In this document: positions 34,020-52,984 of the stretch, piece after piece
How positions within the stretch are numbered: position 1 is the stretch's first letter
How the letters are laid out: every line of letters starts with the position of its first letter
Assembly (NCBI RefSeq): GCF_003382275.1
Contig: NZ_QTJX01000002.1
Location: forward strand, 62,001 to 126,000
Direction of reading: 5' to 3'
Source: Flagellimonas nanhaiensis
GTDB lineage: Bacteria; Bacteroidota; Bacteroidia; Flavobacteriales; Flavobacteriaceae
DNA: 64,000 nt
Position numbers and translations under genes: made by a program
Notes under the pieces: model-generated
The model's input: only the letters and a program-made list of their open reading frames with translations
The model's database searches: none
Told to the model about the DNA's origin: nothing

Positions 34020-35147
34020 TTACTGCAAATGGTTCTCTTTGTCTGTATCCGAAATGGACTTAACGGTCCTAAAGCCCAAATGTTCTTGTGAGGAATCCAG
34101 GGCGTTGGACATCCGCGCAGAAACCCTAAAACTGGCACAATAACTGGCATTGCATAAAAAGGATCCACCACGTATAACTCTTTCCTTGGTATACGGATTG
34201 TGAGGTTTCTTTGGCCCTGTTGGATTTAAGGTAGTGTCCTGCTTTTTAGCCAGATGTCGATAATATTCATAACTATACCAATCTTGTGTGAACTCCCAAA
34301 CATTACCCACCATATCATAAAGTCCGTAACTATTGGGAGGGAAAGAACCGACTGGAGCCTTATTTATAAAGCCATCATCCTGGGTGTTTTTTGTAGGAAA
34401 GGTACCTGTCCAGGTATTGGCCATTTGGTTTAGTTTTTGCCTATCCTTTCCCCAGGGGAAAATTCCGTTTTCCAACCCACCGCGAGCCGCATATTCCCAC
34501 TCGGCCTCTGTAGGAAGTCTGCTCCCCGCCCAGTTACAATACGCAAGGGCATCTTCATAAGCAATATGTACAACTGGATAATTATCCCTTCCCTTCAGAT
34601 TACTTTCCGGACCTTGGGGGTGCTTCCAGTTGGCACCCACCTTCCATTTCCACCATTGCGAATAATCATTTAGATTTTCAATGGGGTTCTCCGGGGTTTT
34701 AAAAATCAATGATCCTGGCTGCAAAATGGAATCATGGGGTTTTGGCGTATCTGGCGGAAGCTGCTGCTTCATTTCTTCCCAATCAATTTCCCGTTCGGCA
34801 AGCGTAACATATCCTGTTTCCTGCACGAAACGTGCAAATTGAGCATTGGTTACTTCGGTAGTGTCCATAAAGAACCCATCAACCGCAACCGCATGCTTTG
34901 GTCTTTCATGCCCCATAGCCATTTCATCTTGATCCATGGCTCCTTGCATAAAAACTCCTCCTGGAATCCATACCATACCCTTTGGGACCTCAATGCTATC
35001 AGGTTTTTTAACAAGTACCAAAGAACTGGGGGCGTCTTCATCCTGTGTGCTCAGCTTTGCTCCATTTTCCTTGCAAGCGTAAAAAACAAATGTGGACAAG
35101 ACAATCAATAAAAGAAGTGTCCTATGTTGTGATTCTGAATTCCCCAT
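34020..35147 (-). CDS. Formylglycine-generating enzyme, lipoprotein
   Basis: Oxidises the active-site Cys of type I sulfatases to formylglycine. 375 aa, SUMF1/FGE fold; the lipobox in 'FVFYAC' indicates a periplasmic lipid-anchored protein. Many SUMF1 relatives lack catalysis, but here the copper-binding pair Cys332 and Cys337 is present in 'SFLCNASYC', followed by 'DSSQEHLGFR', as in human FGE. Other landmarks: 'WIPGGVFMQGA', 'VTNAQFARFV', 'RLPTEAEWEYAARGG', 'MVGNVWEFTQDWY'. Divergent from the PUL regulator and co-located with a CxPSR sulfatase 15 kb away, its likely client. Confidence 0.92.
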   Translation of the reverse strand: MGNSESQHRTLLLLIVLSTFVFYACKENGAKLSTQDEDAPSSLVLVKKPDSIEVPKGMVWIPGGVFMQGAMDQDEMAMGHERPKHAVAVDGFFMDTTEVTNAQFARFVQETGYVTLAEREIDWEEMKQQLPPDTPKPHDSILQPGSLIFKTPENPIENLNDYSQWWKWKVGANWKHPQGPESNLKGRDNYPVVHIAYEDALAYCNWAGSRLPTEAEWEYAARGGLENGIFPWGKDRQKLNQMANTWTGTFPTKNTQDDGFINKAPVGSFPPNSYGLYDMVGNVWEFTQDWYSYEYYRHLAKKQDTTLNPTGPKKPHNPYTKERVIRGGSFLCNASYCASFRVSARMSNALDSSQEHLGFRTVKSISDTDKENHLQ

Positions 35148-35157
35148 AGATTAAAAT

Positions 35158-35191
35158 CAAATATACAGGCTTTAGTGTCAATCTAACCAAA
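35158..35191 (-). promoter_or_regulatory. Promoter of the FGE gene
   Basis: Minus strand: -33 TTTG (35188-35191), 22-bp spacer, -7 TATATTTG (35158-35165), both exact consensus. The candidate operator at 35201-35229 is 9 bp upstream of the -33 box. Confidence 0.6.
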
Positions 35192-35200
35192 ACTAAATCT

Positions 35201-35229
35201 ATGATGTATTTATGATGTACCTCCCAAAC
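35201..35229 (+). promoter_or_regulatory. Candidate PUL operator, copy 1 (regulator/FGE intergenic)
   Basis: 29-bp element starting ATGATGTATTT and containing two GATGTA half-sites 11 bp apart, then CTCC. It matches copy 2 upstream of susC at about 22-23 of 29 positions. It ends 24 bp before a TACTTTTG -7 box (35254-35261) for the regulator gene and sits just upstream of the FGE promoter. Likely bound by the sensor regulator. Confidence 0.6.
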
Positions 35230-35253
35230 ATCCATTCCTTTCAGTAATGGACA

Positions 35254-35261
35254 TACTTTTG
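35254..35261 (+). promoter_or_regulatory. Candidate -7 box of the PUL regulator gene
   Basis: TACTTTTG, exact TAnnTTTG match, 49 bp before the start codon. There is no good -33 box; the operator occupies that side. Confidence 0.5.
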
Positions 35262-35310
35262 TATATTCATTATGCCAACCTTTAATTGGTTATACGAGCC
35301 CAACTGAACA

Positions 35311-38073
35311 ATGCGAATCAATAAATCCATATACTTTTTTATCCCGCTCTTTTTGCTGTGCGCCTTAGCTCATAGTCAAAATCTGCTCCCGCCTGTATAC
35401 AACCATACCCTGTTGGAATATCAAGGGGGAAGTAAAAATTGGGATTTGGCCGTTAATCAAAAGGGGGAACTATTTGTAGCCAATAACAAGGGACTGTTGC
35501 ATTACAATGGTGAAAAGTGGAGCTTGAACAGATTGCCCAATAAGACCATAATTCGTTCCGTAGCGGTAAAAGGTGATAGTATTTTCACTGGGTCTTATGA
35601 GGAATTTGGATTATGGAAAAAGAATGAACTCGGAGAATTAAAATACACCTCCCTTACCCATTTGATCCAGGGCCATGAGTTTACAAGTGAAGAGTTTTGG
35701 GAAATATTACCCATTGGAGATGCTGTTTATTTTAGATCCTTCTCGGCCATATACATGTTCAAGAATGGAAAAGTTGAGATACTTGATCCCCCAGAGGTTA
35801 TTTCCGATTTCATTGACTATAACAATGAAATTATTGTAGCTGCCGGTAATATGGGATTATACCGAATGACAGAAACTGAAATTCTTCCTTTGGACAATCA
35901 AGACTTGTTGCATGGCAAAACCATTACTGATATCATTCAATTTAATGGAGGACTCCTTGTGGGAACGAAACTGAACGGATGCTATTTTTTTGATGGAAAA
36001 GACCTCAGCCCATGGAGCCCTCCCATAAACGAGGAGCTCAAAATGCATCAACTGAACAAGCTTTTGAACCTTAAGAATGGGAAGTTGGTTCTGGGCACCA
36101 TCAAAAATGGGGTTTACGTATATGATTCCCAAACAATGGATTCAAAGATAATCAACAGGGAATCGGGTCTTCAAAATAACACGGTCCTTTCCTTATTGAA
36201 TTTTAAGGACCAGTTATGGTTGGGGTTGGACAATGGGTTGGCCAGAATACGGCTGAACTATCCCATTACCTATTATACGGACTACTCTGGAGTGTTGGGA
36301 ATGGTATACGACATAGCCTGGCACGAAGGCAAATTGTACTTAGGAAGCAATACAGGAGTCTTCTATTTTGAAGAGGATACACTCAAATTTGTAAATGCCT
36401 CCCAAGGACATGTATGGGATCTGGAGGTCGTTGATGGTGATCTCCTCTGTGGGCATAATACCGGAACCTATAAAATACAGGGGGACTCTTTTGATCAAAT
36501 CACTGAAATTTCCGGAGGTTACGAAATTAGGAAGGTCCCTGAACAAAACAACCTCTATATCCAGGGCACCTACAACGGACTTGCCCGTTTTCTCCGAGAA
36601 GACAATGCTGAGTGGAGCATATCTAGGATAAGGGGGCTGGGCTTTCCCATAAAACAGCTCTGTTTTGAAAATCCGCAAACGCTGTGGGCCGTACACCCCT
36701 ATAAAGGATTGTACAGGGTTCAAATGAGCAAAAACTACGACTCCATTACCAATGCCCAGGCCTACGATCACACTGACAATGTACCGAGCGAGTATAACAT
36801 TAAGATATTCAACATAAAGAACCAGATTATTTTCAATAGCGAAGGTAAATGGCTGAAATATGACCCTATCCTAGATCAAATCATAACGTTTGACGAGTTC
36901 CAAAGATTCAATGGTAAGGAATTGTTCTTTTTTGACGGGAAACATTTTTGGTTTGTTGATAGCGACAGGAACAAAGAGATTGTGCATACCGATCTTAAAT
37001 CCGATAGCTTGCTGATCTCTGATATTCCCCTTAGGGAAAGATTGGCCCCAGATTCGCAAAAAATGATCAGAATCAACGACTCCACCCTTTTTGTCACACT
37101 TAATGATGGTTTCGCCCAGATAAATCAAATAGAACTAAAAAAGCAGTTGATGTCTCAAGCGCTGCCAGTTCCTGAAATTGTGGCATTACATGACGAGATC
37201 AGCTCAAACAACCAGTTTTCAGACAAACTGGAAATGCCCTATACACATTCAAGAATTCTTACTTGCGAGGTTGCCGCCCCGGAGCTCATGCAAGCCCGAT
37301 ACCAATATCAGTTAAGCGGTCCCAAGGAATATTCAGGTCGTGCGGAAAACGGTTTTATCGAATTTCAGAACCTTCCACATGGAAACTATACCTTCTCGGT
37401 TTCCACGGTAGGTATCGACAACAGTGTTTCCAAAGCCAATTCAATTGAATTTAGGATAGCCCCTCCTTGGTTTTTGTCCAATTTGATGTTGACCCTATAT
37501 GTTGCGTTGGGCATTGCTACAATTTTCCTGGTAAGATTCTACAACCGAAGAAAGCTGAAGAGAAAACAGAGGGAAATTGAACGAAGGATGCAAAAGGAAC
37601 AGGAAGAAAAGCTTGCGGACCTTGAAAAGGAAAAACTTGCCAAGGAGATACGGTTAAAACAGAACGAGTTGGCCAGTACAACCTTGAATATTGCCAAAAA
37701 GAATGAAGTGATTTTGGAGCTAAAGAATATGCTGGTTATGAACAAGGACAAGTTTTCCAATTCGCAACGCTATCGTTCATTTATCAAAAAACTGAACAAT
37801 TCTATTCAAGATACCGAGGATTGGAAACGTTTTGAGGTAAGTTTCAAGGAACTTCATGAAGATTTTTTTGAAAGACTGCTCAAAACCTACCCCAGTCTTA
37901 CCCCTAAAGATCTAAAACTATGTGCCTACCTTAAAATGAACCTTTCCACAAAGGAAATTGCTCCTTTGATGGCTATCTCAATTAGAGGTGTTGAAATACA
38001 TCGTTATCGACTCAGAAAAAAACTTGAAATTGACAATTCCAAGAACCTATCCAACTTTCTAATAACGTTTTAG
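35311..38073 (+). CDS. PUL sensor/regulator: propeller, Y_Y_Y, TM, LuxR-type HTH
   Basis: 920 aa, one chain from periplasm to cytoplasm. Signal peptide 1-22; about 600 residues of beta-propeller repeats (two-component-regulator type, e.g. 'GELFVANNKGLLHYNG'); a Y_Y_Y domain near 640-720; one TM helix near 730-752; a charged coiled coil near 755-810; and a LuxR-type helix-turn-helix at the C-terminus ('LTPKDLKLCAYLKMNLSTKEIAPLMAISIRGVEIHRYRLRKKL'). No histidine kinase or receiver domain is present, unlike hybrid two-component systems. It probably binds glycan fragments outside and activates susC transcription. Faces susC and shares a 29-bp upstream element with it. Confidence 0.9.
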   Translation: MRINKSIYFFIPLFLLCALAHSQNLLPPVYNHTLLEYQGGSKNWDLAVNQKGELFVANNKGLLHYNGEKWSLNRLPNKTIIRSVAVKGDSIFTGSYEEFGLWKKNELGELKYTSLTHLIQGHEFTSEEFWEILPIGDAVYFRSFSAIYMFKNGKVEILDPPEVISDFIDYNNEIIVAAGNMGLYRMTETEILPLDNQDLLHGKTITDIIQFNGGLLVGTKLNGCYFFDGKDLSPWSPPINEELKMHQLNKLLNLKNGKLVLGTIKNGVYVYDSQTMDSKIINRESGLQNNTVLSLLNFKDQLWLGLDNGLARIRLNYPITYYTDYSGVLGMVYDIAWHEGKLYLGSNTGVFYFEEDTLKFVNASQGHVWDLEVVDGDLLCGHNTGTYKIQGDSFDQITEISGGYEIRKVPEQNNLYIQGTYNGLARFLREDNAEWSISRIRGLGFPIKQLCFENPQTLWAVHPYKGLYRVQMSKNYDSITNAQAYDHTDNVPSEYNIKIFNIKNQIIFNSEGKWLKYDPILDQIITFDEFQRFNGKELFFFDGKHFWFVDSDRNKEIVHTDLKSDSLLISDIPLRERLAPDSQKMIRINDSTLFVTLNDGFAQINQIELKKQLMSQALPVPEIVALHDEISSNNQFSDKLEMPYTHSRILTCEVAAPELMQARYQYQLSGPKEYSGRAENGFIEFQNLPHGNYTFSVSTVGIDNSVSKANSIEFRIAPPWFLSNLMLTLYVALGIATIFLVRFYNRRKLKRKQREIERRMQKEQEEKLADLEKEKLAKEIRLKQNELASTTLNIAKKNEVILELKNMLVMNKDKFSNSQRYRSFIKKLNNSIQDTEDWKRFEVSFKELHEDFFERLLKTYPSLTPKDLKLCAYLKMNLSTKEIAPLMAISIRGVEIHRYRLRKKLEIDNSKNLSNFLITF

Positions 38074-38218
38074 AGGAATAATCTCACAAAAAAGCATCTG
38101 TTTCAGCCCATCTATCCAATACTTCATTACTACATCATTCTGTTAATTTTTTTTTCTCTTTACATCAAATAGACTACTGCAAGCCCCTTAATAACTCAAT
38201 TCTTTAACCCCAATACAG

Positions 38219-38247
38219 ATGATGTATTTTTTATGTATCTCCAACCC
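38219..38247 (+). promoter_or_regulatory. Candidate PUL operator, copy 2 (upstream of susC)
   Basis: Second copy of the 29-bp element (ATGATGTATTT ... ATGTATCTCC). Its end is 22 bp before TTAATTTG (38270-38277), one base off the -7 consensus; copy 1 has 24 bp to its -7 box. The equal spacing and absence of a -33 box suggest activation by the sensor regulator. Confidence 0.6.
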
Positions 38248-38307: not shown

Positions 38308-41300
38308 ATGAAATTCAAACACCTCTTGTTGTCAATACCAATAATGTTGCTTTCCATGGCCGTTTCGGCGCAGGACAACATTACGGTTTCAGGAACAGTT
38401 ACAGACGGTCAGGGGACTCCTTTGCCAGGGGCCAATGTCATCCTTAAAAATACTACTACGGGTGTGCAGACTGATTTTGATGGTAACTATGTATTGGATA
38501 ATGTGCCAAGCAATGGCACATTGGTCTTTAGTTATATAGGTTTTACATCGCAGGAAATTCCTGTGAACGGACAAAACACAATTAATATTTCACTCCAAGA
38601 AGATACACAAGCACTTGATGAAGTGGTGGTGGTAGGTTATGGTGAATTAAAGGTGAAAGATCTTACTTCGGCCATTGCCACGGTAGATTCTGAGGTATTG
38701 GATTTGGCCCCAGTGGGTCAGCCTATGCAAGCCTTGCAAGGTAGGGTAGCCGGTCTTCAAATTGTAAACAATGGAGGACCTGGACAATCACCTACCGTTA
38801 GGGTAAGGGGTATTGGGTCCTACAATACGGATGCTTCAAATCCCTTGTTTGTTGTTGATGGAGCCTTCTTTAACGACATTGATTTCCTAAACCCTTCGGA
38901 CATTGCTTCCGTATCAGTCCTAAAGGATGCCTCCGCGGCAGCGATTTATGGTGTACGGGCAGCCAATGGAGTTGTCATTATTGAGACAAAATCTGGAAAA
39001 TTCAATCAAAAGCCACAGATTACTTACGATGGATATACAGGTTATCAAGTAGCACAAAATATTTTGACCATGGCCAACTCAGAGCAGTTCACCACTTTGG
39101 CTCTGGAATCAGGCTCAGATCCAGATGTAGAATTTATTTTGAATGCCATGCAACGTTATGGACGAAGCCGGGTCAACCCCAATATCCCTGACGTGAACAC
39201 GGATTGGTATGATCAGATTATTCGTACAGCTTTGATTCAAAATCATAGTTTGAGCATGACCGGAGGTAGTGAACAAGCCACTTATGCCATCGGTGCTAAC
39301 TATTTTGAGCAGGAAGGTATCCTCAAAATGAAAAACGAATATGAAAGATTCAACCTTAGGAGCAAAATAGATTTTCAAGTCAACGATTGGTTAAAAGTTG
39401 GAGGAAGTATGGTACTCAGCAACTCGACCAGGTATGATGCAGAAGATTCAGCCTGGCGGCTTGCCTACTATGCAGTACCGGTACTTCCAGTTTTTGATCC
39501 ATTATTGTTGGATAATCCAGATGTCTTTCCAACCAACTACGCCAACGCACAAGACTTAGGGTATCGTGGAGGACAAAATCCTTTCCCAACTATGGATTTT
39601 AGCCAGAACCGAGAAAAAACAAGAAATGTTTTGGCCAACTTTTATGCAGAATTCGACCTGGTTCCAGAAAAACTAAAATTCAAAACTGCTTACAATCATA
39701 ATTTTGAGAACACCAATAGACGAGAAGTAAGACTACCATATTTTATTGGTAATAATTTTCAACGGGAAGATGCCTCCCTATTAAAAAGGGAAGTCACCAT
39801 ATCCAATCAGATTTGGGACAACACTCTTACTTATACCGATACCTTTGGAAAACATGACTTAACGGTTCTGGGAGGTGTTTCCTTTAGGGATGAAGCCCTA
39901 GACCTTTTGCAAGCAAGAGGTTTAAACTTCCCTCTCTCTGGAGAAGAAGCCTATTTCATAGATCAAGCACAGACCATTGTAGAGGCCGATACTTTTGATG
40001 GCGGCGCCAGGGAATATGGATTATCCTACTTTGGAAGGGTGTCCTATAATTTTGACAATCGTTACCTTTTATATGGAACCTTCAGGGCTGATGGAACCAA
40101 CAAATACCAAGAAAAATGGGGCTACTTCCCAACAGTTGGAGCTGGTTGGGTCGTTTCAGAGGAAGCCTTCTTCCCTGAGAGCAACGTAGTAAACTTTTTA
40201 AAACTTCGTGGTAGTTGGGGAGAATTGGGTAACGATAGGGTTCCTTCAAGTGAAGGATCCATCACATCTACTGTTGTGACCACCGCTCTGGGAGATATTC
40301 TGTTCAGTGGACTAAACACCAGTAGTGATTTTACTGCACTTAAATGGGAAGTAACAGAAGAAATCAACGCCGGTCTTTCCGCTCGAATGTTCAACAATAA
40401 CCTTTCGCTAGAGGCGGATTACTACGTTAGGGATACCAAAGATGCAGTAATCCCGGTAGAAAGACCTCTAATTCCTGGTGCCACAAGACAGAACATAGGA
40501 GAAATAAGAAATTCAGGTTTTGAGATCGCACTGAATTGGAACAAACAAGTTTCCGAAGACTTCAGTTACAGCATTGGCGGTAATTTGGGAACCCTCAAAA
40601 ATGAGGTTCTGGATTTAGGCGGTCAGCCCTTTTTGGATGCAGGTACCGCAGAGTTTAGACAACGTTCCATTGTTGGAGAATCCATCTTTGCATTCTACGG
40701 AAGAGAAGTTATAGGTGTATATCAAAACGACGCACAGATCCAAGCAGACCCAGTAGCGGTGGCCAATGAGCTGGAGCCAGGAGATTTTATCTATCGCGAC
40801 ATTAATGGAGATGGTGACATCAATGATGATGACCGGACTGTGTTGGGATCCTTCTTACCTGAATACACATATGGTTTCAATATCGGATTCAACTATAAAG
40901 CATGGGACTTTTCAGCCAGTGCAACGGGACAAGGAGGAAATTCCATTCTGAACCGTAAACGTGGTGAGGTAATCTTTACCAACGATACCAACTGGGACAG
41001 GGATTTTGCCATCAACCGTTGGCATGGCGAAGGAACTACCAATAGTTACCCATCTTCAGCCGGAATTCGCAAATCATGGAACCAACGTCTTAATACATGG
41101 TTTATAGAAGATGGAGACTTTTTCAGGATTCAGAACATCACTCTAGGTTATACAATCAATAAGGATGGTAGTTTAAAAGGCATGCCACAGATCAGGATAT
41201 ATGCCACAGCTGAAAAACCGTTGACAGTGTTTGATTATAACGGTTTTAACCCGGAAGTATCCAACGGCGTCGACAATCAGACCTATCCTATTCCTGCAGT

Positions 41301-41331
41301 ATATACTGTTGGTGTGAACGTTAAAATTTAA
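38308..41331 (+). CDS. SusC-type TonB-dependent outer-membrane transporter
   Basis: 1007 aa. Signal peptide to about residue 21, a carboxypeptidase-regulatory-like domain at 24-100 ('GTVTDGQGTPLPGANVIL'), TonB box 'EVVVVGYG' near 106-113, plug domain 115-230 ('MQALQGRVAGLQIVNNGGPGQ', 'VRVRGIGS'), then the 22-strand barrel ending in an aromatic/basic strand. It imports large oligosaccharides through the outer membrane with its SusD partner, which follows 10 bp downstream. Preceded by a candidate operator. Substrate probably beta-1,2-glucan fragments, by context only. Confidence 0.95.
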   Translation: MKFKHLLLSIPIMLLSMAVSAQDNITVSGTVTDGQGTPLPGANVILKNTTTGVQTDFDGNYVLDNVPSNGTLVFSYIGFTSQEIPVNGQNTINISLQEDTQALDEVVVVGYGELKVKDLTSAIATVDSEVLDLAPVGQPMQALQGRVAGLQIVNNGGPGQSPTVRVRGIGSYNTDASNPLFVVDGAFFNDIDFLNPSDIASVSVLKDASAAAIYGVRAANGVVIIETKSGKFNQKPQITYDGYTGYQVAQNILTMANSEQFTTLALESGSDPDVEFILNAMQRYGRSRVNPNIPDVNTDWYDQIIRTALIQNHSLSMTGGSEQATYAIGANYFEQEGILKMKNEYERFNLRSKIDFQVNDWLKVGGSMVLSNSTRYDAEDSAWRLAYYAVPVLPVFDPLLLDNPDVFPTNYANAQDLGYRGGQNPFPTMDFSQNREKTRNVLANFYAEFDLVPEKLKFKTAYNHNFENTNRREVRLPYFIGNNFQREDASLLKREVTISNQIWDNTLTYTDTFGKHDLTVLGGVSFRDEALDLLQARGLNFPLSGEEAYFIDQAQTIVEADTFDGGAREYGLSYFGRVSYNFDNRYLLYGTFRADGTNKYQEKWGYFPTVGAGWVVSEEAFFPESNVVNFLKLRGSWGELGNDRVPSSEGSITSTVVTTALGDILFSGLNTSSDFTALKWEVTEEINAGLSARMFNNNLSLEADYYVRDTKDAVIPVERPLIPGATRQNIGEIRNSGFEIALNWNKQVSEDFSYSIGGNLGTLKNEVLDLGGQPFLDAGTAEFRQRSIVGESIFAFYGREVIGVYQNDAQIQADPVAVANELEPGDFIYRDINGDGDINDDDRTVLGSFLPEYTYGFNIGFNYKAWDFSASATGQGGNSILNRKRGEVIFTNDTNWDRDFAINRWHGEGTTNSYPSSAGIRKSWNQRLNTWFIEDGDFFRIQNITLGYTINKDGSLKGMPQIRIYATAEKPLTVFDYNGFNPEVSNGVDNQTYPIPAVYTVGVNVKI

Positions 41332-41341
41332 AAAAATCACT

Positions 41342-42883
41342 ATGAGACTGTATATAACTAACTTCAAAATTAAAGCACTGTTGGCCATATTTGTTTTGGC
41401 CTTACTAGGGTGCACCGACAAACTCGATGAGCCGGAATTGAACAACAATTTTGCCGGAGGAACCGACTTTACCAAGACTGAGGATATGGTCCTCTCACTG
41501 ATTGGGGTGTATGAAGCGTTCCAATCCAGGGGATGGGAGCAACCTTTGCTCATAGCCGTACGTGGAGATGATGTTAACGCTGGTGGTCTTGGGGACCAAC
41601 CACAATTCTTCGACACCGATCTCTTCAAATACGACAAAGACTATTGGATGTACAACTCCCTTTGGGAGAATGTTTATGTAGATGTGATTTCTGCCCATAC
41701 TGCAATGGAGCAAATTGAAAGGTATCAAGAACTTGCCGATAACAATGGGGTTGCTTTGGGAAATCAGTACATCGCTGAGGCCAAAGTTATCCGGGCCATT
41801 ATGCTTTTCCATATTTCCCAAGTATGGGGAGACGTTTTCATTCCCACATCATCAGATACGGGAGAATTAAAACTGCTAGAAACAGTGCCCACTCAGGATG
41901 AGGTCATGCAACATATTTCTGACCAGATGGATGAGGCCATTCCTTTCCTTCTGGATACACATCCCAACAAAAGAACCGATTTACCCGGTGGTGCTACCGT
42001 TTATACTGCACTGGCCATTAAGGCATTGGCCAACCAGGAATTAGGCAACTATCAAGCTGTAGCGGATGCATGCGCAGAAATTATCAATTCGGGTGAGTTT
42101 AGTCTGTTTCCTGATTATTACGAACTCTTTAAAACCCCTGGAAAGCTAAGCGATGAGAGCATTTTGGATATGCAGTATTCGGATTTTGGTCAAGGTGAAG
42201 GAGATCGTGAAGGTCACCTATATGCCCCCTATGGCCCTCAAAATTGGACTCCCGCAGTAGATGGAGCATCCAGTGGATGGGGCTTTTTTGAACCCAGCAT
42301 GAAATTCATCAAATTCATGTTGGACCGAGGGGAAGCCGTTCGATTGGAAACCAGTGTACTTTTTACAGATCGCGGTATTGCAGAATTGCAAACTGACCCC
42401 GATTATGCAACACTGCCTGCTTTTGTTTCAAACACCACTCGGGATGGGGATCTTATCAATGATTATGCAAGGGCACTTTTTGCAAGTGGAAAACACTATT
42501 TGCCTTCTGCACAATTGATTCCAGGCCGAACAGCCTACGGAAGCAATAAAAACTTCAACATTATTCGATACGCTGAGATTTTGCTCACCTATGCAGAAGC
42601 CCTTACCCAAGGTGCTTCAAGTTCTGGAATGACAGCAGATCAAGCTGTGAATCTTGTACGCGAAAGAGCTGGAATGGACCCATTGTCCGGCGTGACACTA
42701 GATCAAGTGTTAGATGAGAAATATGCAGAGCTGAGCATGGAATGGGGCAAACGCTATTTTGACATGATTCGTTTGGGAAGAACAAGCGAATTAAGTTATG
42801 ACGGCAGGACATTTACCGAGGACAAGGCATTTTTACCCTATCCGCAGGCGCAAGTTGACCAATTTCCAATCCTTGGCAACTAG
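41342..42883 (+). CDS. SusD/RagB-type glycan-binding lipoprotein
   Basis: 513 aa, lipobox 'LALLGC' near residue 22. The N-terminal SusD-like and C-terminal RagB/SusD domains follow ('YIAEAKVIRAIMLFHISQVWGDVFIP', 'NFNIIRYAEILLTYAEAL', 'VNLVRERAGMDPL', 'MEWGKRYFDMIRLGR'), the standard TPR-rich lid over SusC. Length normal. It lies between susC and the LamG protein, co-oriented, 26 bp to the next gene. Confidence 0.95.
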   Translation: MRLYITNFKIKALLAIFVLALLGCTDKLDEPELNNNFAGGTDFTKTEDMVLSLIGVYEAFQSRGWEQPLLIAVRGDDVNAGGLGDQPQFFDTDLFKYDKDYWMYNSLWENVYVDVISAHTAMEQIERYQELADNNGVALGNQYIAEAKVIRAIMLFHISQVWGDVFIPTSSDTGELKLLETVPTQDEVMQHISDQMDEAIPFLLDTHPNKRTDLPGGATVYTALAIKALANQELGNYQAVADACAEIINSGEFSLFPDYYELFKTPGKLSDESILDMQYSDFGQGEGDREGHLYAPYGPQNWTPAVDGASSGWGFFEPSMKFIKFMLDRGEAVRLETSVLFTDRGIAELQTDPDYATLPAFVSNTTRDGDLINDYARALFASGKHYLPSAQLIPGRTAYGSNKNFNIIRYAEILLTYAEALTQGASSSGMTADQAVNLVRERAGMDPLSGVTLDQVLDEKYAELSMEWGKRYFDMIRLGRTSELSYDGRTFTEDKAFLPYPQAQVDQFPILGN

Positions 42884-45336: not shown

Positions 45337-46710
45337 ATGAGGATAGTTCTAGTATTAATTTTATGTGCCATTGTCTCTTTAGTAGCGGGATGCAATGACC
45401 TCAGAACTTCCAAGAAAAAGTTGGTGGCCCAAAATGAATTGGGCCCCAACTATTCTGACGAAGAACTTATGGATCTTTTACAGCAACAGACCTTCAACTA
45501 TTTCTGGGAAGGTGCTGAACCCGTTTCGGGTCTTGCCCGTGAACGTATCCATTTAGATAACATTTACCCAACCCATGACAAGGATATTGTTACAACCGGA
45601 GGGTCCGGTTTTGGTTTGATGGCCATTTTGGTGGGAGTGGAACGTGGTTTTATAACTCGCGAACAAGCTCTTGAAAGATTTGAAAAAATCACTGATTTCC
45701 TTGAAAAGGCAGAGCGTTTTCACGGAGCCTGGCCGCATTGGCTCAATCCAGACGGAACGGTTTCCCCTTTTAGTGCCAAGGACAATGGTGGCGATTTGGT
45801 GGAAACAGCATTTTTAATCCAAGGATTACTGTCAGTAAAAGAATATTTTAAAAATGGTACTGACCGTGAACAAAAACTAACACAGAAAATCCAAAAGCTT
45901 TGGGAAGAAGTAGAATGGAATTGGTACACCAAGGAGGGTGAAGACGTTTTGTACTGGCATTGGAGTCCAAACTATGGGTGGGAAATGAATTTTCCTGTTG
46001 GCGGATATAATGAGGCCCTGATCATGTACATTTTAGCAGCTTCTTCCCCAACCTATCCAATCAACAAAAATGTCTATGAAAAAGGTTGGGCCAGAGATGG
46101 CCTCATCGCAAAAGACACCACATATTATGGTCTTGAAACGGAATTGAATCACTACGAGCACAGTAATTCACCTGTTGGACCTCTTTTTTGGGCACACTAC
46201 TCCTATTTGGGATTAAACCCCAACGACTTGGTCGATCAATATGGAAATTATTGGAACCTCAATAGAAATCATGCCCTTATCCATTACAAACATGCCATGA
46301 AAAACCCTGATGGCTTTGAGGGGTATGGAAAAGATTGCTGGGGACTGACTTCCAGTTATTCAACTAAGGGCTATGCTGCCCACAGACCGGACGAGGATAT
46401 CGGGGTTATTTCCCCAACAGCCGCACTATCTTCATTTCCGTATACCCCTAAAGAAAGTATGCAGTTTCTTCGGTTTTTATACAAAGACCACGATAGTCTC
46501 ATTGGCAAATATGGCCCTTTTGACGCTTTTAGTTTTGAAAAGGATTGGTATCTCCCAAGATATTTGGCCATTGACCAAGGTCCCATACCAGTAATGATCG
46601 AAAATCACAGGAGTGGCCTTTTCTGGAAGTTGTTTATGGAAAATAAGGATGTTCAAAGAGGCTTACATAAACTAGGCTTTCAAAGTCCACATTTAAAAAC
46701 CAATGGTTAA
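45337..46710 (+). CDS. GH144-type beta-1,2-glucanase lipoprotein, copy 1
   Basis: 457 aa, lipobox 'LVAGC' near 19. The catalytic part is an (alpha/alpha)6 barrel of the glycoamylase-like family (PF10091, GH144): 'LQQQTFNYFWEGAEP', 'TTGGSGFGLMAILVGVERGFI', 'FHGAWPHWLNPDG', 'DNGGDLVETAFLIQGLL', 'HWSPNYGWEMNFPVGGYNEALI', 'FWAHYSYLGLNP', 'ISPTAALSSFPYTP'. Family members hydrolyse beta-1,2-glucans endo- or exo-wise (sophorose-releasing). It acts outside the cytoplasm. It overlaps the next, paralogous gene by 8 bp. I recognised the family from these motifs; the reaction type is not decided. Confidence 0.88.
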   Translation: MRIVLVLILCAIVSLVAGCNDLRTSKKKLVAQNELGPNYSDEELMDLLQQQTFNYFWEGAEPVSGLARERIHLDNIYPTHDKDIVTTGGSGFGLMAILVGVERGFITREQALERFEKITDFLEKAERFHGAWPHWLNPDGTVSPFSAKDNGGDLVETAFLIQGLLSVKEYFKNGTDREQKLTQKIQKLWEEVEWNWYTKEGEDVLYWHWSPNYGWEMNFPVGGYNEALIMYILAASSPTYPINKNVYEKGWARDGLIAKDTTYYGLETELNHYEHSNSPVGPLFWAHYSYLGLNPNDLVDQYGNYWNLNRNHALIHYKHAMKNPDGFEGYGKDCWGLTSSYSTKGYAAHRPDEDIGVISPTAALSSFPYTPKESMQFLRFLYKDHDSLIGKYGPFDAFSFEKDWYLPRYLAIDQGPIPVMIENHRSGLFWKLFMENKDVQRGLHKLGFQSPHLKTNG

Positions 46711-48088
46711 AGTTGTACAAACCATATTGATAGCAGCCCTATTGTTATCATCGTGTGGCGGTGGTGATGACTATACCTATACCCCAATAGATTTTCCAGA
46801 TGATGATACCGGCACACCTGATGATGAGCCAACTATTAGTGATGAAGACCTTTTGGACTTGACCCAGCAAGAAACATTTAAATATTTCTGGGATTTCGCC
46901 GAAGTAAACTCTGGCGGCGCCAAAGAAAGATATCATCCTAGCGACCCTGGCAGAGATGCTCATGTAGTTACCTCAGGAGGAACAGGCTTCGGCCTAATGG
47001 CTATTTTGGTAGGTATTGAAAGAGGATTCATATCCCGTCAGCAAGGAGTGGAACGATTGGCCACGCTTCTTGATTTTTTGGAAAATGCCGATCGTTTTCA
47101 TGGGGCATGGGCCCATTGGATGAACGGCAACAACGGTTCGGTTATTCCATTTAGTCCCATGGACAACGGAGGCGACCTGGTTGAAACTGCTTTTTTGAGT
47201 CAAGGGCTGATCTGCATCAAAGAATATTTTAAAAATGGGAGTGACACAGAAAAAGGGTTGGCCCAAAAGGCTGATGATCTTTGGAAAGGCGTGGAATGGG
47301 ATTGGTATACCCAGAACAAGAATAGCCTGTACTGGCATTGGAGCCCTAATTTTGGATTTCAAATCAATCTTGAATTAAAAGGTTATAATGAAGTACTCAT
47401 TGCTTATGTCCTTGCAGCCGCTTCACCAGACCATAGTATAGCCAAAGAAGTGTATTCCAACGGATGGGCATCCAACGGTGGTATTACATACCCAAACAAT
47501 AAATACGGATATCCTCTTCTAGTACGTCATGCTGGAGCTTTGGAATATGGTGGACCACTTTTCTGGGCACATTACTCCTATCTCGGACTCAATCCAAATG
47601 GCCTTTCTGACGATTATGTGAGTTACTGGAATGTAAACGTAAACCATTCCAAGATCAACTATAGCTACTGCGTTGAAAATCCGAAGAACTTTGAAGGTTA
47701 TGGTTCAGATTGTTGGGGCCTAACGGCCAGTTATTCCAGAAATGCAGACGGTACCATGGGTTACAATGCCCATCATCCTGCCAATGACACTGGCGTAATA
47801 TCGCCCACAGCTGCAATCAGCTCCATACCCTATACTCCCAATGAATCCTTAAGTGCGATGCATTATTTCTATAAGAACAAGGATAAGCTTTTGGGGCCTG
47901 CAGGGTTTTATGATGCCTTTAGTCCTGAATATGATTTTTGGGTGGGTGAAGCCTATTTAGCTATTGACCAAGGACCCCAAATCATTATGATAGAAAACTA
48001 TAGGACTGGACTTCTTTGGAATTTGTTCATGCAAAATGAAGATGTACAAACCGGATTGGACAAGTTGGATTTTCAGTACAATAATTAA
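46703..48088 (+). CDS. GH144-type beta-1,2-glucanase lipoprotein, copy 2
   Basis: 461 aa paralogue of the preceding gene. The lipobox 'LLSSC' is followed by an acidic, Asp/Thr-rich linker (about 20-45), a surface-export-like feature. The same core motifs occur ('LTQQETFKYFWDFAEV', 'VTSGGTGFGLMAILVGIERGFI', 'FHGAWAHWMNGNNG', 'HWSPNFGFQINLELKGYNE', 'ISPTAAISSIPYTP'). One copy may be the surface endo-enzyme and the other a periplasmic exo-enzyme; the acidic linker points to copy 2 as the surface one. This assignment is inference. Confidence 0.88.
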   Translation: MVKVVQTILIAALLLSSCGGGDDYTYTPIDFPDDDTGTPDDEPTISDEDLLDLTQQETFKYFWDFAEVNSGGAKERYHPSDPGRDAHVVTSGGTGFGLMAILVGIERGFISRQQGVERLATLLDFLENADRFHGAWAHWMNGNNGSVIPFSPMDNGGDLVETAFLSQGLICIKEYFKNGSDTEKGLAQKADDLWKGVEWDWYTQNKNSLYWHWSPNFGFQINLELKGYNEVLIAYVLAAASPDHSIAKEVYSNGWASNGGITYPNNKYGYPLLVRHAGALEYGGPLFWAHYSYLGLNPNGLSDDYVSYWNVNVNHSKINYSYCVENPKNFEGYGSDCWGLTASYSRNADGTMGYNAHHPANDTGVISPTAAISSIPYTPNESLSAMHYFYKNKDKLLGPAGFYDAFSPEYDFWVGEAYLAIDQGPQIIMIENYRTGLLWNLFMQNEDVQTGLDKLDFQYNN

Positions 48089-48129: not shown

Positions 48130-50406
48130 ATGAACTCATATCGACTTTTGGCACTACTTGTCTTCCAACTATTCTTTTTCAATAATGCCTGGGGACAAAG
48201 TGAATCTACCATTCCAGACGTAGAAGCCTTGCTTCAGCAAATGAGTCTTGAAGAAAAAATTGGCCAACTGAACCTCCTCACCCCTGGAGGGGGTGTGGCC
48301 ACAGGTTCAGTGGTAAGTAAAAATGTGGAATCCAAAATCAAAGCTGGGCAAGTAGGTGGATTGTTTGGTGTGGCTGGTCCGGAACGGGTTAGAAAAGCTC
48401 AAGACATTGCCGTTAAAAACTCCCGTCTAAAAATTCCCTTGTTAATCGGTTCGGACGTAATTCATGGCTACAAAACTACCTACCCTATTCCTTTGGGACT
48501 TTCAAGTAGTTGGGACATGGATTTGATTCAAAAAGCGGCTAGAATGGCTGCACAAGAAGCCACCGCAGATGGGATCATGTGGAACTTTTCTCCCATGGTT
48601 GATATCGCCAGAGACCCCCGATGGGGCCGTATTGCCGAAGGGGCAGGTGAAGACCCTTATTTGGGTTCCAAAATCGCTGAAGCCATGGTCAAAGGTTACC
48701 AAGGCAATGATCTCACCGCTCCCAATACCATGTTGGCCTGCGTAAAACACTTTGCGCTCTATGGAGCAAGTGAGGCGGGCAGGGATTATCACAGCGTGGA
48801 CATGAGCAAAACAAAGATGTACAATCAATACCTGCCTCCCTATAAAGCAGCTGTTGACGCAGGTGTAGCAAGTGTTATGACATCTTTTAACGATGTTGAT
48901 GGAATTCCTGCGACCGGAAATCATTGGTTGCTGACCAATTTACTTCGTAAAGAATGGCAATTTGATGGATTTGTGGTTTCAGACTACACCTCTCTAAATG
49001 AAATGATTGCCCATGGTCTTGGGGACCTTCAGCAAGTATCCAAACTTGCCCTCAAAGCAGGTCTGGATATGGATATGGTGGGGGAAGGATTTTTGACCAC
49101 CTTGAAAAAATCGGTGGAAGAAGGCAAAATTTCCGAGGATGAGATTACCCAAGCTTGTCGTAGAGTATTACAAGCAAAATACCAAGCAGGCCTTTTTGAA
49201 GACCCCTATCGATATCTTGATACCAATAGGCCTGAAAAGGACATTCTAACCAAAGAAAATCGAGCTGTTGCACGAAAATTGGCGGCTCATTCCTTTGTAC
49301 TACTCAAAAATCACAATCAAATCCTTCCAGTCAACAAAAGACAGAAAATAGCCTTAATAGGACCTCTGGCGGACAGTCGCAACAATATGTTGGGCACATG
49401 GGCTCCAACCGGAGATTCCAAACTTGCTGTTACCATTCTTGAAGGTGTTAAAAATGTAGCTCCAGAGGCTGAAATAAATTTTGCCAAAGGCGCCAATATT
49501 TCAGATGACAAAGAATTTGCCAAAAAGATAAATGTCTTTGGGCCGAGAATAGTTATTGATACAAGGTCACCCGAAACCCTATTGCAAGAGGCCGTTGCAG
49601 CTGCCAAAAAATCTGATGTAGTGGTCGCTGTTGTGGGCGAGGCCACTGAAATGAGTGGCGAATCTGCAAGTAGAACAGATATTTCCATTCCAGATAGCCA
49701 AAAGAAACTCATTAGGGCCCTAGTTGCAACAGGTAAACCAGTAGCTCTGGTTTTAATGAGCGGAAGACCACTTACCATTCCAGAGGAATTTGAAATGCCC
49801 GTATCCATCCTTCAAGTATGGCATCCAGGTGTTGAAGCTGGTAATGCCATAGCAGATGTTCTTTTTGGGGATGAAGTTCCTTCTGGAAAATTGACAGCCT
49901 CCTGGCCTAGAAATGTTGGACAAATTCCTATCTATCACAGTGTAAAAAACACGGGTAGACCAGGTCCTAAAGACGAATTTGAAAAATTCAAAACCAATTA
50001 TCTGGATGCTCCCAATTCGCCCTTGATACCATTTGGTTATGGATTGAGTTATACAAACTTTGCATATTCCAATCTTAAAGTTGATAAACCCGAAATAAAT
50101 CAAGGTGAATCTCTAAAAGTCCAGGTTATCGTAACCAATACTGGAAGTTATGATGGAGCAGAAGTGGTGCAATTATATCTTCGGGATGTGGTACGAAGTA
50201 TAACTCCTCCTGTCAGACAGCTAAAGGGATTTCAAAAGGTTTTCCTGAAAAAAGGTGAAAGTCAGAATATTACACTTACCTTAAAGCCAGAAGATTTGAA
50301 ATTTTACAACAGCTCTTTGGAGTTTGTTGCTGAGCCGGGTGAATTTGAGGTTTATGTAGGAACCGACTCCGCATGTACCCTTAAAACATCCTTTATCTTA
50401 AAATAA
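48130..50406 (+). CDS. GH3 beta-glucosidase (BglX-like)
   Basis: 758 aa with signal peptide (cut after 'NAWG'). Family-3 glycosidase: N-terminal barrel with 'GRIAEGAGEDPYLGSKIAEAMVKGYQG', 'KHFALYG' and nucleophile Asp285 in 'GFVVSDYTSLNEM'; an alpha/beta sandwich with 'VAVVGEATEMSGE', whose Glu residues are acid/base candidates; and a C-terminal fibronectin-like domain ('VTNTGSYDGAEVVQLYLRD'). Periplasmic. Following two GH144 genes, the expected job is cutting sophorose and short beta-1,2-gluco-oligosaccharides to glucose. Some GH3 enzymes in such loci do this; other beta-linkages are possible. Confidence 0.93.
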   Translation: MNSYRLLALLVFQLFFFNNAWGQSESTIPDVEALLQQMSLEEKIGQLNLLTPGGGVATGSVVSKNVESKIKAGQVGGLFGVAGPERVRKAQDIAVKNSRLKIPLLIGSDVIHGYKTTYPIPLGLSSSWDMDLIQKAARMAAQEATADGIMWNFSPMVDIARDPRWGRIAEGAGEDPYLGSKIAEAMVKGYQGNDLTAPNTMLACVKHFALYGASEAGRDYHSVDMSKTKMYNQYLPPYKAAVDAGVASVMTSFNDVDGIPATGNHWLLTNLLRKEWQFDGFVVSDYTSLNEMIAHGLGDLQQVSKLALKAGLDMDMVGEGFLTTLKKSVEEGKISEDEITQACRRVLQAKYQAGLFEDPYRYLDTNRPEKDILTKENRAVARKLAAHSFVLLKNHNQILPVNKRQKIALIGPLADSRNNMLGTWAPTGDSKLAVTILEGVKNVAPEAEINFAKGANISDDKEFAKKINVFGPRIVIDTRSPETLLQEAVAAAKKSDVVVAVVGEATEMSGESASRTDISIPDSQKKLIRALVATGKPVALVLMSGRPLTIPEEFEMPVSILQVWHPGVEAGNAIADVLFGDEVPSGKLTASWPRNVGQIPIYHSVKNTGRPGPKDEFEKFKTNYLDAPNSPLIPFGYGLSYTNFAYSNLKVDKPEINQGESLKVQVIVTNTGSYDGAEVVQLYLRDVVRSITPPVRQLKGFQKVFLKKGESQNITLTLKPEDLKFYNSSLEFVAEPGEFEVYVGTDSACTLKTSFILK

Positions 50407-50519
50407 CTTTACTTTCTAATAAAGCTGAAATAGGGTTGGAATTCTGCTAATCCTTATTTTTAGAGAAGGTATTATCTGATATTGGGCAAATCAGAAAAAC
50501 AAAACAAAATCAACCACCA

Positions 50520-52145
50520 ATGGACAAAAAACTCTATCTCATCCTCTTGCTGGGTCTATTTGTTTCCTGCAAGCAGGAAAAAGCTGCATCCGAAGTTGAA
50601 AAAAAGCCGCTCAATATTGTTTTCATCATGTCAGATGACCATGCTTACCAAGCTATCAGTGCTTATGGTCACGAATTGAGCAAATTGGCCCCCACTCCCA
50701 ACATAGACCGTTTGGCCAAAAATGGGGCGCTCTTCAATAACAATTTCTGCACCAATTCCATTTGCGGACCTAGTCGAGCCGTTATTCTTACAGGAAAACA
50801 TAGCCATATCAATGGCTTTAGAATGAATGGGGAGCGTTTTGACGGCAATCAGGCTACCCTACCGAAGTACTTAAAAAAACTGGGGTATGAAACTGCCATC
50901 GTAGGCAAATGGCATTTGCACGGTGCGCCTACAGGTTTTGATTATTGGGAAATTCTGGATGGACAAGGAAAATATTATAATCCCGAATTCATAAAAGGAA
51001 ACGATACCGTTTGGACGGAGGGCTATGCCACCGACCTTATTACCGAAAAAGGACTGGATTGGCTCAAACAACGGGATAGTGTTGAGCGGCCTTTCTTTAT
51101 GATGGTGCACCACAAAGCCCCGCATAGAAATTGGATGCCTGCCCTACGACATGCAAACATGTACGATTCCATTACATTTCCCTTACCTGATACGTATTTT
51201 CCAGAGTTTGAAAATCAGCAAGCTTCGGTGGAGCAAGAACAAACCATTTATGTGGATATGTACGAAGGCCACGACCTGAAAATGACAAAAGCTTATGGAA
51301 GTCCGGAATTGGACCACAATCCATGGCCAAGCGACTTTGAGCGAATGACCCCAGCGCAGTGGGAGGCATGGAACAAGGCGTATTTACCTAAAAACAACGC
51401 TTTTCACGAAGCAAATCTGAGTGGAGAGGAACTGGCCATTTGGAAGGGGCAACGATACCTACAGGATTATCTGGCCACCGTTGCTTCTGTTGATGAAAGT
51501 GTAGGAAAGATTCTGGATTATTTGGAAGAGACCGGTCTTGATGAGAACACTTTGGTAGTTTATACCTCGGACCAAGGATTTTATTTGGGCGAAAAAGGAT
51601 GGTTTGACAAACGCTTTATGTACGAACAATCGCTAAGGATGCCATTGTTAATGCAATTACCAGGAGTTATTGAGCCAGGCACCGAAATTGATGCCTTGAC
51701 CCAGAACTTGGACTTTGCACCAACCTTTTTAGATTTGGCTGGTGGCTTGGACCATGCTTCACAAATGCAAGGCAAATCCTTTAAAGCTTTATTGGATGGC
51801 TCCTCAAATGATTTTAAGGATGCCATTTACTACCACTATTACGACTTTCCTGCTTTCCATATGGTTAAAAAGCAGTATGGGGTACGCACAAAGCGCTATA
51901 AGCTCATCCATTTTTATGATGATATTGATCAGTGGGAGTTTTATGATTTGGAAAAGGATCCTGCAGAAATGTACAATGCCATCAATGATGAAGTCTACGC
52001 GGATATCATTCCTGTTATGCACCAAAAGTTGGACAGTCTTCAAAAGCTCTACAAAGTAACCGATAAAGAGTTTGAAAATGCTCCAAAAGAGGACGTAGAA
52101 AAAGCTCATGAATTTTTTGATGGACTGCTCAAAAAGAATCAATGA
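50520..52145 (+). CDS. Type I sulfatase, lipoprotein
   Basis: 541 aa, lipobox 'LFVSC' near 17. The formylglycine motif C82-G-P-S-R86 is intact, so it needs FGE (encoded at 34020-35147). Calcium ligands 'MSDDHAYQA' (Asp-Asp) and 'YTSDQGFYLGEKGWFDKR' are present, as are 'TGKHSHINGF' and 'GKWHLHG'. The fold is that of choline/heparan-type sulfatases (alkaline phosphatase superfamily), some of which act on phosphodiesters too. It is 113 bp after the GH3 gene and overlaps the EEP gene by 4 bp. The substrate is probably a sulfated (or otherwise anionic) sugar in the PUL glycan. Confidence 0.93.
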   Translation: MDKKLYLILLLGLFVSCKQEKAASEVEKKPLNIVFIMSDDHAYQAISAYGHELSKLAPTPNIDRLAKNGALFNNNFCTNSICGPSRAVILTGKHSHINGFRMNGERFDGNQATLPKYLKKLGYETAIVGKWHLHGAPTGFDYWEILDGQGKYYNPEFIKGNDTVWTEGYATDLITEKGLDWLKQRDSVERPFFMMVHHKAPHRNWMPALRHANMYDSITFPLPDTYFPEFENQQASVEQEQTIYVDMYEGHDLKMTKAYGSPELDHNPWPSDFERMTPAQWEAWNKAYLPKNNAFHEANLSGEELAIWKGQRYLQDYLATVASVDESVGKILDYLEETGLDENTLVVYTSDQGFYLGEKGWFDKRFMYEQSLRMPLLMQLPGVIEPGTEIDALTQNLDFAPTFLDLAGGLDHASQMQGKSFKALLDGSSNDFKDAIYYHYYDFPAFHMVKKQYGVRTKRYKLIHFYDDIDQWEFYDLEKDPAEMYNAINDEVYADIIPVMHQKLDSLQKLYKVTDKEFENAPKEDVEKAHEFFDGLLKKNQ

Positions 52146-52984
52146 TGAAACGAACATTTTGGGTTATAGTATTGTTGCTTGCCGCCTATGGTCAGGCTCA
52201 ATCCATTAGTGTTTTGTCTTACAATATCCGTTATGACAATCCAGGTGATGGCTTAAACAGCTGGGAACACAGAAAGGAATTTCTCATTTCCCAACTCAAA
52301 TTTTATGGACCGGATGTCTTTGGAACCCAAGAAGGATTGATCCACCAGTTAAAGGATGTGGACGCAGGTCTTGAACAATACCGATATTTTGGCATTGGCA
52401 GAGACCATGGTGATGAACGAGGAGAATTTACAGCTATCTTTTATAACCAAAACAAGTTGGAACTTTTGGAGGAAAGCACATTTTGGCTGTCCAAAACTCC
52501 TGAAAAACCCTCCAAATATTGGGATGCTGCGCTTCCAAGAATTTGCACTTATGGCCATTTTAAGGCTAAAGATGGGCCAACTGAATTCCTGCTGTTCAAT
52601 ACCCATTTTGATCATGTAGGAGAGATTGCTCGTGAAGAAAGTGCCAAATTGATCCTAAAAAAAATAAAAGAACTTAATCCCAATAAATTGCCCGTGGTGT
52701 TAATGGGGGATTTCAATTTGGAAAGCAATAGCAAGGGCATTCAATTGATTATGGAGCAAATGGCGGATACTCAAATTGCGGCAGGCAGTAATGCCCATGG
52801 TCCTCAAGGGACTTTCAATGGATTTGATTTTACCAAACCGGTAACAAGAAGAATCGATTATATTTTTACCTCAACCGTCAACATTGAAATCATAAAAAGT
52901 GGTATCCTAAGTGATTCCTTTGATTGTAGGTATCCTTCGGACCATTTGCCGGTTTATGCCGAATTGAAGTTGAAGAATCAATGA
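52142..52984 (+). CDS. Secreted endonuclease/exonuclease/phosphatase-family enzyme
   Basis: 280 aa with a signal peptide (cut near 'GQAQ-S'). DNase I-like fold: 'VLSYNIRYDNPGDG' (Asn), 'DVFGTQEGL' (metal Glu), 'FNTHFDHVG' (His/Asp), 'VLMGDFNLES' (Asp-x-Asn), 'DYIFTS' and 'SDHLPVYAEL' (catalytic His). The family covers nucleases, sphingomyelinases, sugar and inositol phosphatases. Being exported and the last gene of the PUL, it is more likely a phosphodiesterase or phosphatase for a glycan substituent than a nuclease. ATG tandem in an ATGATG overlap with the sulfatase stop. Confidence 0.9.
   Translation: MMKRTFWVIVLLLAAYGQAQSISVLSYNIRYDNPGDGLNSWEHRKEFLISQLKFYGPDVFGTQEGLIHQLKDVDAGLEQYRYFGIGRDHGDERGEFTAIFYNQNKLELLEESTFWLSKTPEKPSKYWDAALPRICTYGHFKAKDGPTEFLLFNTHFDHVGEIAREESAKLILKKIKELNPNKLPVVLMGDFNLESNSKGIQLIMEQMADTQIAAGSNAHGPQGTFNGFDFTKPVTRRIDYIFTSTVNIEIIKSGILSDSFDCRYPSDHLPVYAELKLKNQ

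Follow-up and report, generated by a model that had tools for sequence, protein, structure and literature searches.

Gene organization of the locus

The locus described here occupies positions 34020-52984 of a 64,000-nucleotide stretch of Flagellimonas nanhaiensis DNA (contig NZ_QTJX01000002.1; hereafter the window), taken from a genome of 4.03 Mb in 19 contigs. It is a single block of ten genes, which we read, with somewhat more confidence than doubt, as a polysaccharide utilization locus (PUL) for β-1,2-glucan bearing 6-O-sulfate; both the substrate and the sulfate position are deduced from sequence. An earlier interpretation made from the letters alone (the sequence-only reading) had listed the same ten open reading frames (ORFs). 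All were confirmed at the same coordinates, and their families match those named there in Pfam and NCBIfam profile searches. The best E-values range from 5.6e-19 (endonuclease/exonuclease/phosphatase [EEP] enzyme) to 1.9e-272 (GH3); the regulator alone is weak. A SusC/SusD pair, carbohydrate-active enzymes, and a regulator lie on one strand, as expected of a PUL. Signal peptides and lipoboxes were judged by eye, without a predictor.

The first gene (34020-35147, minus strand) is divergent and encodes a formylglycine-generating enzyme (FGE) with an FGE-sulfatase domain (PF03781, 265 bits) and the lipobox FYAC, a predicted lipoprotein that would mature S1 sulfatases. The genes from the regulator through the EEP enzyme are all on the plus strand. 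The PUL regulator (35311-38073) has a LuxR-type helix-turn-helix (GerE, E 6.7e-6), an exported sensor region, and one transmembrane stretch recognized by eye. Its Y_Y_Y match is weak (E 0.0047, under the Pfam cut-off), no histidine kinase domain was found in it by the Pfam scan, and its make-up does not suggest a hybrid two-component system. It is followed by a SusC-type TonB-dependent glycan transporter (38308-41331; TIGR04056, 843 bits against a cut-off of 368), a SusD-type surface glycan-binding protein (41342-42883; PF07980, 79 bits), and a glycan-binding lipoprotein (42910-45285) with Big_7 and three Laminin_G_3 stretches (PF13385, 226 bits), which probably sits at the cell surface.

Two putative lipoproteins come next, GH144 a (45337-46710; PF10091, 255 bits) and GH144 b (46703-48088; PF10091, 268 bits), whose ORFs overlap by 8 bases. 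Their best solved relatives in the Protein Data Bank (PDB) are 5gzh, an endo-β-1,2-glucanase (571 bits, GH144 a), and 5gzk/5gzh (549 bits, GH144 b), which we take to be structures of CpSGL. Changes of D135, D139, E142, and E211 in CpSGL drastically lower its activity (PMC12102758; this and the other papers cited are quoted from the portions available). The aligned residues are D149, D153, E156, and E226 in GH144 a and D154, D158, E161, and E230 in GH144 b. The pair has DNGGDLVE and YNE motifs, and the spacing between the two glutamates is 70 and 69 residues, as compared with 69 in CpSGL. By sequence, both tandem enzymes belong to GH144 and are predicted β-1,2-glucanases. PF10091, the CpSGL matches, and the four acids thus uphold the GH144 placement made in the sequence-only reading, neither enzyme falling outside the family, and they likewise support the β-1,2-glucan backbone that it proposed. 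The GH3 enzyme (48130-50406) is an exported β-glucosidase of the BglX type (NF011678 equivalog, 906 bits; cut-off 666). Its solved relatives include 3u48, 5tf0, and 5xxl, the last of which is presumably the sophorose-active enzyme BT_3567, and it would split sophoro-oligosaccharides to glucose. GH144 and GH3 are the only glycosidases that Pfam finds in the locus. The block ends with an S1_11-like sulfatase (50520-52145), a lipoprotein by eye, and a secreted EEP-fold enzyme (52142-52984), their ORFs overlapping by 4 bases.

The sulfatase and its association with GH144

The sulfatase has an S1 sulfatase domain and the formylglycine-type C-x-P-S-R site, as C82-G-P-S-R. Its best PDB match is 9s03 (784 bits), titled only "Putative sulfatase"; no publication on this entry turned up in the literature search. 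Along a stretch of 204 residues, the 9s03 chain agrees at 99.5% with the sulfatase of Mariniflexile fucanivorans, its catalytic Cys being replaced by Ser. The M. fucanivorans locus has LamG, two GH144, GH3, and sulfatase genes in identical order, whereas an EEP gene was not detected in its fetched stretch. Judged by these sequences, 9s03 is the crystal structure of an ortholog of the window sulfatase. The next matches are 7p24 (BT3177, 527 bits) and 5g2v (BT4656, 499 bits), both S1_11. Phosphonate monoester hydrolases (2vqr and 2w8s), which we take to act on phosphonates and phosphodiesters, matched far lower (106 and 104 bits). A predicted model (pLDDT 87, from an alignment of the window protein with sequences from 24 of the 80 loci described below, 25 in all) was compared with known structures. 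The fold Z score is 50 to BT3177 and BT4656, 47.5 to an Akkermansia muciniphila sulfatase, 42 to the 6-sulfatases Bacple_01701 and BuS1_11, 40.5 to an S1_25 sulfatase (the highest-ranking row whose title names a different S1 family), and 34 to phosphonate monoester hydrolases; 9s03 was absent from the 50 rows of this search. In sequence and in modeled fold, the enzyme is closest to SulfAtlas S1_11.

All 103 sequences compared share D363 and R365, and H447 is likewise invariant across the 102 in which this position is present. The counterparts of D363/R365 in BT4656 are D361/R363, as numbered along the alignment, which we take to be the O4-binding pair. This assignment is in line with what is stated for S1_11 enzymes, in which a His binds O3, Asp/Arg bind O4, and 6-O-sulfate is removed (PMC10154612). 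The catalytic site and the D/R and putative O3-binding His positions of BT4656 and BT3177 align with the window sulfatase. In contrast, the substrates of BT4656, BT3177, and BuS1_11 are 6-sulfated N-acetylglucosamine or N-sulfated glucosamine (6S-GlcNAc/GlcNS) or L-galactose-6-sulfate, and the window enzyme is predicted to be a glucose-6-O-sulfatase.

The genomic association of the sulfatase with GH144 was analyzed in loci of named genomes, using the best 80 of at least 589 relatives and fetching up to 10 kb on each side. GH144 was nearby in 32 of 34 loci with a sulfatase at least 60% identical, 5 of 7 at 55-60%, and 3 of 39 below 55%. The last band serves as a built-in control within the same scan (Fisher p 6e-15, highest band versus lowest). 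The named closest relatives, at 72-78% identity, are from Allomuricauda/Muricauda and Flagellimonas, and the host flavobacterium is probably marine. A tree was built by a quick method from rows with at least 36% identity and at least 78% coverage, after removal of seven identical ones (112 to 105). A supported set (SH-aLRT 96) comprises 67 of the 105 rows, with GH144 nearby in 62, and the GH144 label changes 7 times on the tree as compared with a shuffled mean of 32. The motif Cys is kept in 66 of the 67.

Members of the set are mostly from Bacteroidota, including Sphingobacterium and Flammeovirga, together with a Candidatus Margulisbacteria metagenome-assembled genome (MAG) and two Alphaproteobacteria. 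In the MAG, GWF2_35_9, GH144 stands beside the set-type sulfatase, which looks like horizontal transfer or mis-binning. The Alphaproteobacteria are Qipengyuania and Stakelama (L086 and L084), and L086 adds a 29% identical GH144-like gene, a GH3 gene, and an EEP-like gene nearby.

For the residue comparison, two long-branch rows beside GH144 (L182 and L123) were dropped, leaving 67 sequences inside the set and 36 outside. Fifteen positions separate the set from other locus sulfatases (residue frequency of 90% or more within it and 25% or less elsewhere), and the window protein carries 14 of them. These set-specific residues include R210, Y244, Y248, P268, W269, F273, and F446, as distinguished from the other locus sulfatases rather than from BT4656, BT3177, or BuS1_11. 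F446 adjoins H447 and is present in 100% of the set versus 0% outside. The set-specific residues may form part of a glucan subsite.

The association was also viewed from the GH144 side. In the family, 249 genomes were scanned, of which 67 had a PF10091 match above the cut-off. One stretch of up to 20 kb was taken from each of 66 of them, the window genome being excluded and two sub-threshold genomes (G069 and G182) not included; seven identical sulfatases occur both here and in the sulfatase scan. The counts are lower bounds, as some stretches are short (10.8 kb for L154 and 7.5 kb for L186) and others are ended by contigs. A sulfatase, counted at 60% identity and 70% coverage or more, so that the weaker L123 and L182 were scored absent, was found in 30 of the 66. 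The sequence-only reading had regarded the PUL type as uncommon, a view that this frequency contradicts. The stretches further contained GH3 (53), SusC (55), LamG (36), two or more GH144 (46), EEP (12), and FGE genes (1), and 18 of 66 shared the order SusC, SusD, LamG, GH144, GH144, GH3, sulfatase. Tandem GH144 tracks the sulfatase (28/30 with it versus 18/36 without; Fisher p 1e-4). With one representative scanned for each cluster, GH43, GH2, and GH97 clusters were found in 22, 11, and 7 of the loci, respectively.

Two clusters of putative esterases of the alpha/beta-hydrolase type also recur in this sample (one representative each scanned), in 38 and 17 of the 66 loci (for example, L171:9706-10524 and L148:14197-15117). 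They would fit acyl-substituted β-1,2-glucans, and neither cluster is present in the window locus.

The EEP enzyme (Exo_endo_phos, PF03372) has two closest solved relatives with nearly equal scores, 3mpr (E 4.9e-62; no function named) and the mannosyl-6-phosphatase 4c1r (E 1.8e-61; residues 21-260 of 280). We take 4c1r to be BT3783, serving a mannan locus, whereas the partner enzymes here are β-1,2-glucanases. E64, H155, D190, N192, D267, and H268 are invariant in 27 EEP sequences and presumably correspond to the active-site residues of the family. No close paralog was seen in the genome, the best other match being 31% identical (E 2e-4). The 12 EEP genes found among the 66 loci are distributed as 9/30 with the sulfatase and 3/36 without it (Fisher p 0.03), an association weaker than that of tandem GH144. 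Among the 9 loci with both genes, the distance from the sulfatase to the EEP start is at most 0.7 kb in 6 and 1.8-1.9 kb in 3. The EEP enzyme is an optional accessory of GH144 loci. A reasonable guess for its target is phosphate on glucose O6, and a phosphodiester is possible.

Substrate and proposed pathway

Here, we propose how the locus would act on its substrate. The SusD protein, the triple-LamG protein, and probably one GH144 lipoprotein would bind and cut the glucan at the cell surface, and SusC would bring the oligosaccharides in. In the periplasm, 6-O-sulfate would be stripped from glucose by the S1_11-like sulfatase, itself matured by the lipoprotein FGE, and the GH144 pair and GH3 would finish breaking the chain down, releasing glucose. 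The EEP enzyme may take off a second, phosphate-type group present on part of the substrate. We infer the cellular locations, the order of the steps, and the EEP substrate. The parts of this reading differ in strength. The β-1,2-glucan backbone is very probable. Given that backbone, sulfate is quite likely the natural group, and given sulfate, O6 is its likely position, if a little less firmly. The sequence-only reading had called for a natural substrate with charged groups. That view gains support from the tight linkage of an S1_11-type sulfatase to GH144 across genomes. The EEP enzyme may point to phosphate or phosphoglycerol groups. For the succinyl group, also suggested there, the locus has no esterase, although putative esterases are found in other GH144 loci.

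Several observations weigh against sulfated β-1,2-glucan as the substrate. No report of such a polymer turned up in the literature searched. S1_11 also includes L-galactose-6-sulfate enzymes, notably aquatic ones (PMC10154612), and a family that acts on several sugars leaves the sugar unfixed. The candidate O3-binding His was placed through the alignment alone, and the PehA family of phosphoric/sulfuric ester hydrolases also matched the protein (133 bits; cut-off 900). In five of the 67 set rows no GH144 was found in the fetched stretch, some of these being on short contigs, and three rows beside GH144 (L096, L123, and L182) fall outside the set. Members come from records that are not obviously marine (Sphingobacterium arenae, Proteiniphilum, and the Margulisbacteria MAG). 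The sulfatase is missing at the cut used from 36 of the 66 GH144 loci, and sulfate is therefore not obligatory. The linkage counts and Fisher tests take each genome singly, ignoring relatedness.

Four other explanations were considered. The substrate could be a sulfated heteropolysaccharide with only short β-1,2-glucosyl stretches or side chains, which GH144 and GH3 would clear while the sulfatase acts on a neighboring sugar. The GH43, GH2, and GH97 genes added in other GH144 loci fit this view, as does the range of 6-sulfated sugars served by S1_11 members (PMC10154612). The window locus, however, holds only GH144 and GH3 glycosidases, enough for a glucan. Moreover, structural work suggests that CpSGL-type enzymes need glucose at subsites -3 and +2, and hence runs of β-1,2-glucose (PMC12102758); we regard a heteropolysaccharide as a minor possibility. 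An ordinary osmoregulated periplasmic glucan (OPG) with phosphoglycerol is decidedly improbable. In that case, the formylglycine enzyme would cut the phosphodiester and the EEP enzyme would remove the remaining sugar-6-phosphate. Formylglycine-dependent hydrolases of the 2vqr/2w8s kind occur in the same superfamily, and the EEP enzyme is close to a mannosyl-6-phosphatase and commoner alongside the sulfatase (9/30 versus 3/36). Nevertheless, both the bit scores and the fold Z scores place the window protein far nearer to 6-O-sulfatases than to phosphonate hydrolases, and EEP is missing from the fetched stretch of 21 of the 30 sulfatase loci. The sulfatase is also described as a marine addition to GH144 PULs (PMC6499787), an argument tempered by Escherichia coli, which makes OPG with phosphoglycerol (PMC3818809).

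It is very unlikely that the sulfatase and the EEP enzyme are unrelated passengers in a locus that uses plain β-1,2-glucan. Such a role would agree with the 36 of 66 GH144 loci in which the sulfatase is missing at the cut used and with the 12 of 66 in which EEP is present, but the sulfatase-GH144 linkage over many genera, seen in the identity bands (32/34 versus 3/39) and in the tree, is too tight for it. That the GH144 pair acts on another linkage is barely plausible. Related (α/α)6 families do differ in reaction, as in the GH189 transglycosylating domain of cyclic glucan synthase (PMC11842490). Nonetheless, the CpSGL entries are the best matches of both enzymes (549-571 bits), and the four mutation-sensitive acids are all present.

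The combination of genes itself is not new. Lapebie et al. (2019; PMC6499787) described GH144 PULs of marine bacteria to which a sulfatase is added, and they inferred a sulfated marine polysaccharide of unknown identity. As in the window, GH144, SusCD, and a sulfatase stand in one locus, and a widespread sulfated counterpart of the terrestrial β-1,2-glucan was inferred from the gene clusters; unlike here, the available portions of their account do not specify the subfamily of the sulfatase or where the sulfate sits, and they mention neither EEP nor FGE. Wolter et al. (2021; PMC8072126) reported that every Maribacter and Zobellia carries GH144, as do many marine flavobacteria. The cluster of Maribacter dokdonensis 62-1 in that paper has one GH3, two GH144, susCD, and a sulfatase as in the window, whereas EEP and FGE go unmentioned in the part available. 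These two papers rule out the suggestion in the sequence-only reading that the PUL type is undescribed. Enrichment of GH144 genes has also been reported for the deep waters of the Mariana Trench (PMC10405439), and the available portions of PMC9122927, PMC10405439, and PMC11748540 do not mention a sulfatase beside GH144. No report was found that isolates the polymer or assigns the subfamily of the GH144-linked sulfatase, in a search that left out bioRxiv preprints altogether and the majority of subscription papers. The PUL type is thus already described and biochemically unsolved, and the 6-O-sulfate prediction is sharper than any found in print.

The S1_11 placement and the residues of the GH144-linked set turn "some sulfated polysaccharide" into a specific and testable prediction, 6-O-sulfated β-1,2-glucan. 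What the present analysis adds is the S1_11 assignment, the clade-specific residues, 9s03 as the structure of an ortholog, and possibly a connection with glucose-6-sulfate, a compound putatively detected in ocean water. In phosphorus-poor water, sulfolipids replace phospholipids. By analogy, marine bacteria might make a β-1,2-glucan in which 6-O-sulfate replaces the phosphoglycerol of known OPGs. The locus might be built for such a mixed glucan, with an S1_11-type glucose-6-O-sulfatase serving the sulfated residues and a sugar-6-phosphatase the phosphorylated ones. We consider this idea improbable. If it is true, the glucose-6-sulfate of ocean water could come from this chemistry. The enzymes of the locus could serve to find and measure sulfated β-1,2-glucan in seawater.

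Sulfatase maturation and neighboring genes

The best PDB matches of the lipoprotein FGE are FGE chains (1y1e at the top, E 4.6e-77). C332 and C337 align with both C-terminal active-site Cys of 1y1e, a pair that presumably binds copper, and the protein is by its sequence a genuine FGE. A search of its own genome returned one full-length match, itself, and partial matches in ORFs of 460, 557, and 387 aa. Their lengths, their family matches, and a reading of the 387-aa protein and its neighbor suggest that these are GldK, GldJ, and an EgtB-like protein. The anaerobic sulfatase maturase TIGR03942 had no match in the genome at E ≤ 0.001. Three Cys-type S1 sulfatases, each of which would require an FGE, are encoded, one here (CGPSR) and two on contig 16 (CSASR and CTPSR); a fourth PF00884 match is 557 aa long (41 bits). 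As the sole maturase found in a genome holding three Cys-type sulfatases, the FGE is not dedicated to the locus, contrary to the earlier proposal.

Comparison with other genomes points the same way. FGE was near GH144 in 1 of the 66 loci. A sample of 20 relatives held 12 genomes of the same genus, and eight of these have a sulfatase 70-79% identical to that of the window. Seven of the eight have a full-length FGE ortholog, which is separated from the sulfatase by over 40 kb or placed on a different contig, although breaks between contigs make this less certain in fragmented assemblies such as G254 and G258. In the eighth (G250), the close FGE match is only a fragment, and a 283-aa FGE-domain ORF (42%) is about 13 kb from the sulfatase. 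G229, also of this genus, has a GH144 locus with sulfatase and EEP genes and no FGE within its 20 kb. With FGE distant in the same-genus genomes and absent from the G229 stretch, the adjacency in the window looks like a local accident; the locus sulfatase would still depend on the FGE.

At five places in four same-genus genomes, the FGE orthologs adjoin a different S1_11-like sulfatase of about 50% identity (G253:C1:423658-426456, G255:C34:71395-74193, G255:C43:223709-226486, G258:C53:32146-34924, and G259:C25:45124-47901). The FGE frames of G255:C43 and G259:C25 each have one internal stop. Fifty stretches of G254 match the sulfatase, many of them on contig C301, and this strain is perhaps a specialist for sulfated polysaccharides.

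On the 3' side of the EEP gene, an RND efflux operon lies on the opposite strand (53186-58916), adjoined by a gene for a leucine-rich-repeat protein (59067-59960, minus strand). Upstream of the FGE, beyond an ORF that matches no Pfam family and a gene for an AraC-type regulator, are cytochrome c, COX1-type, and NorQ/CbbQ-type genes. The genes for a NorQ/CbbQ-type AAA ATPase, a COX1-family protein, and cytochrome c at 29234-32011 (minus strand) probably form a nitric oxide reductase cluster. A candidate promoter at 35158-35191 (minus strand) upstream of the FGE, found by scanning for TTTG/TAnnTTTG, which we take to be the promoter consensus, was rejected, as the 5 matches in the window are at chance level (3.07 expected). 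The gap between GH3 and the sulfatase (50400-50525) folds somewhat better than its shuffles (z -2.3, with 5 of 200 equally low) and could be a leader or attenuator, or a chance fold.

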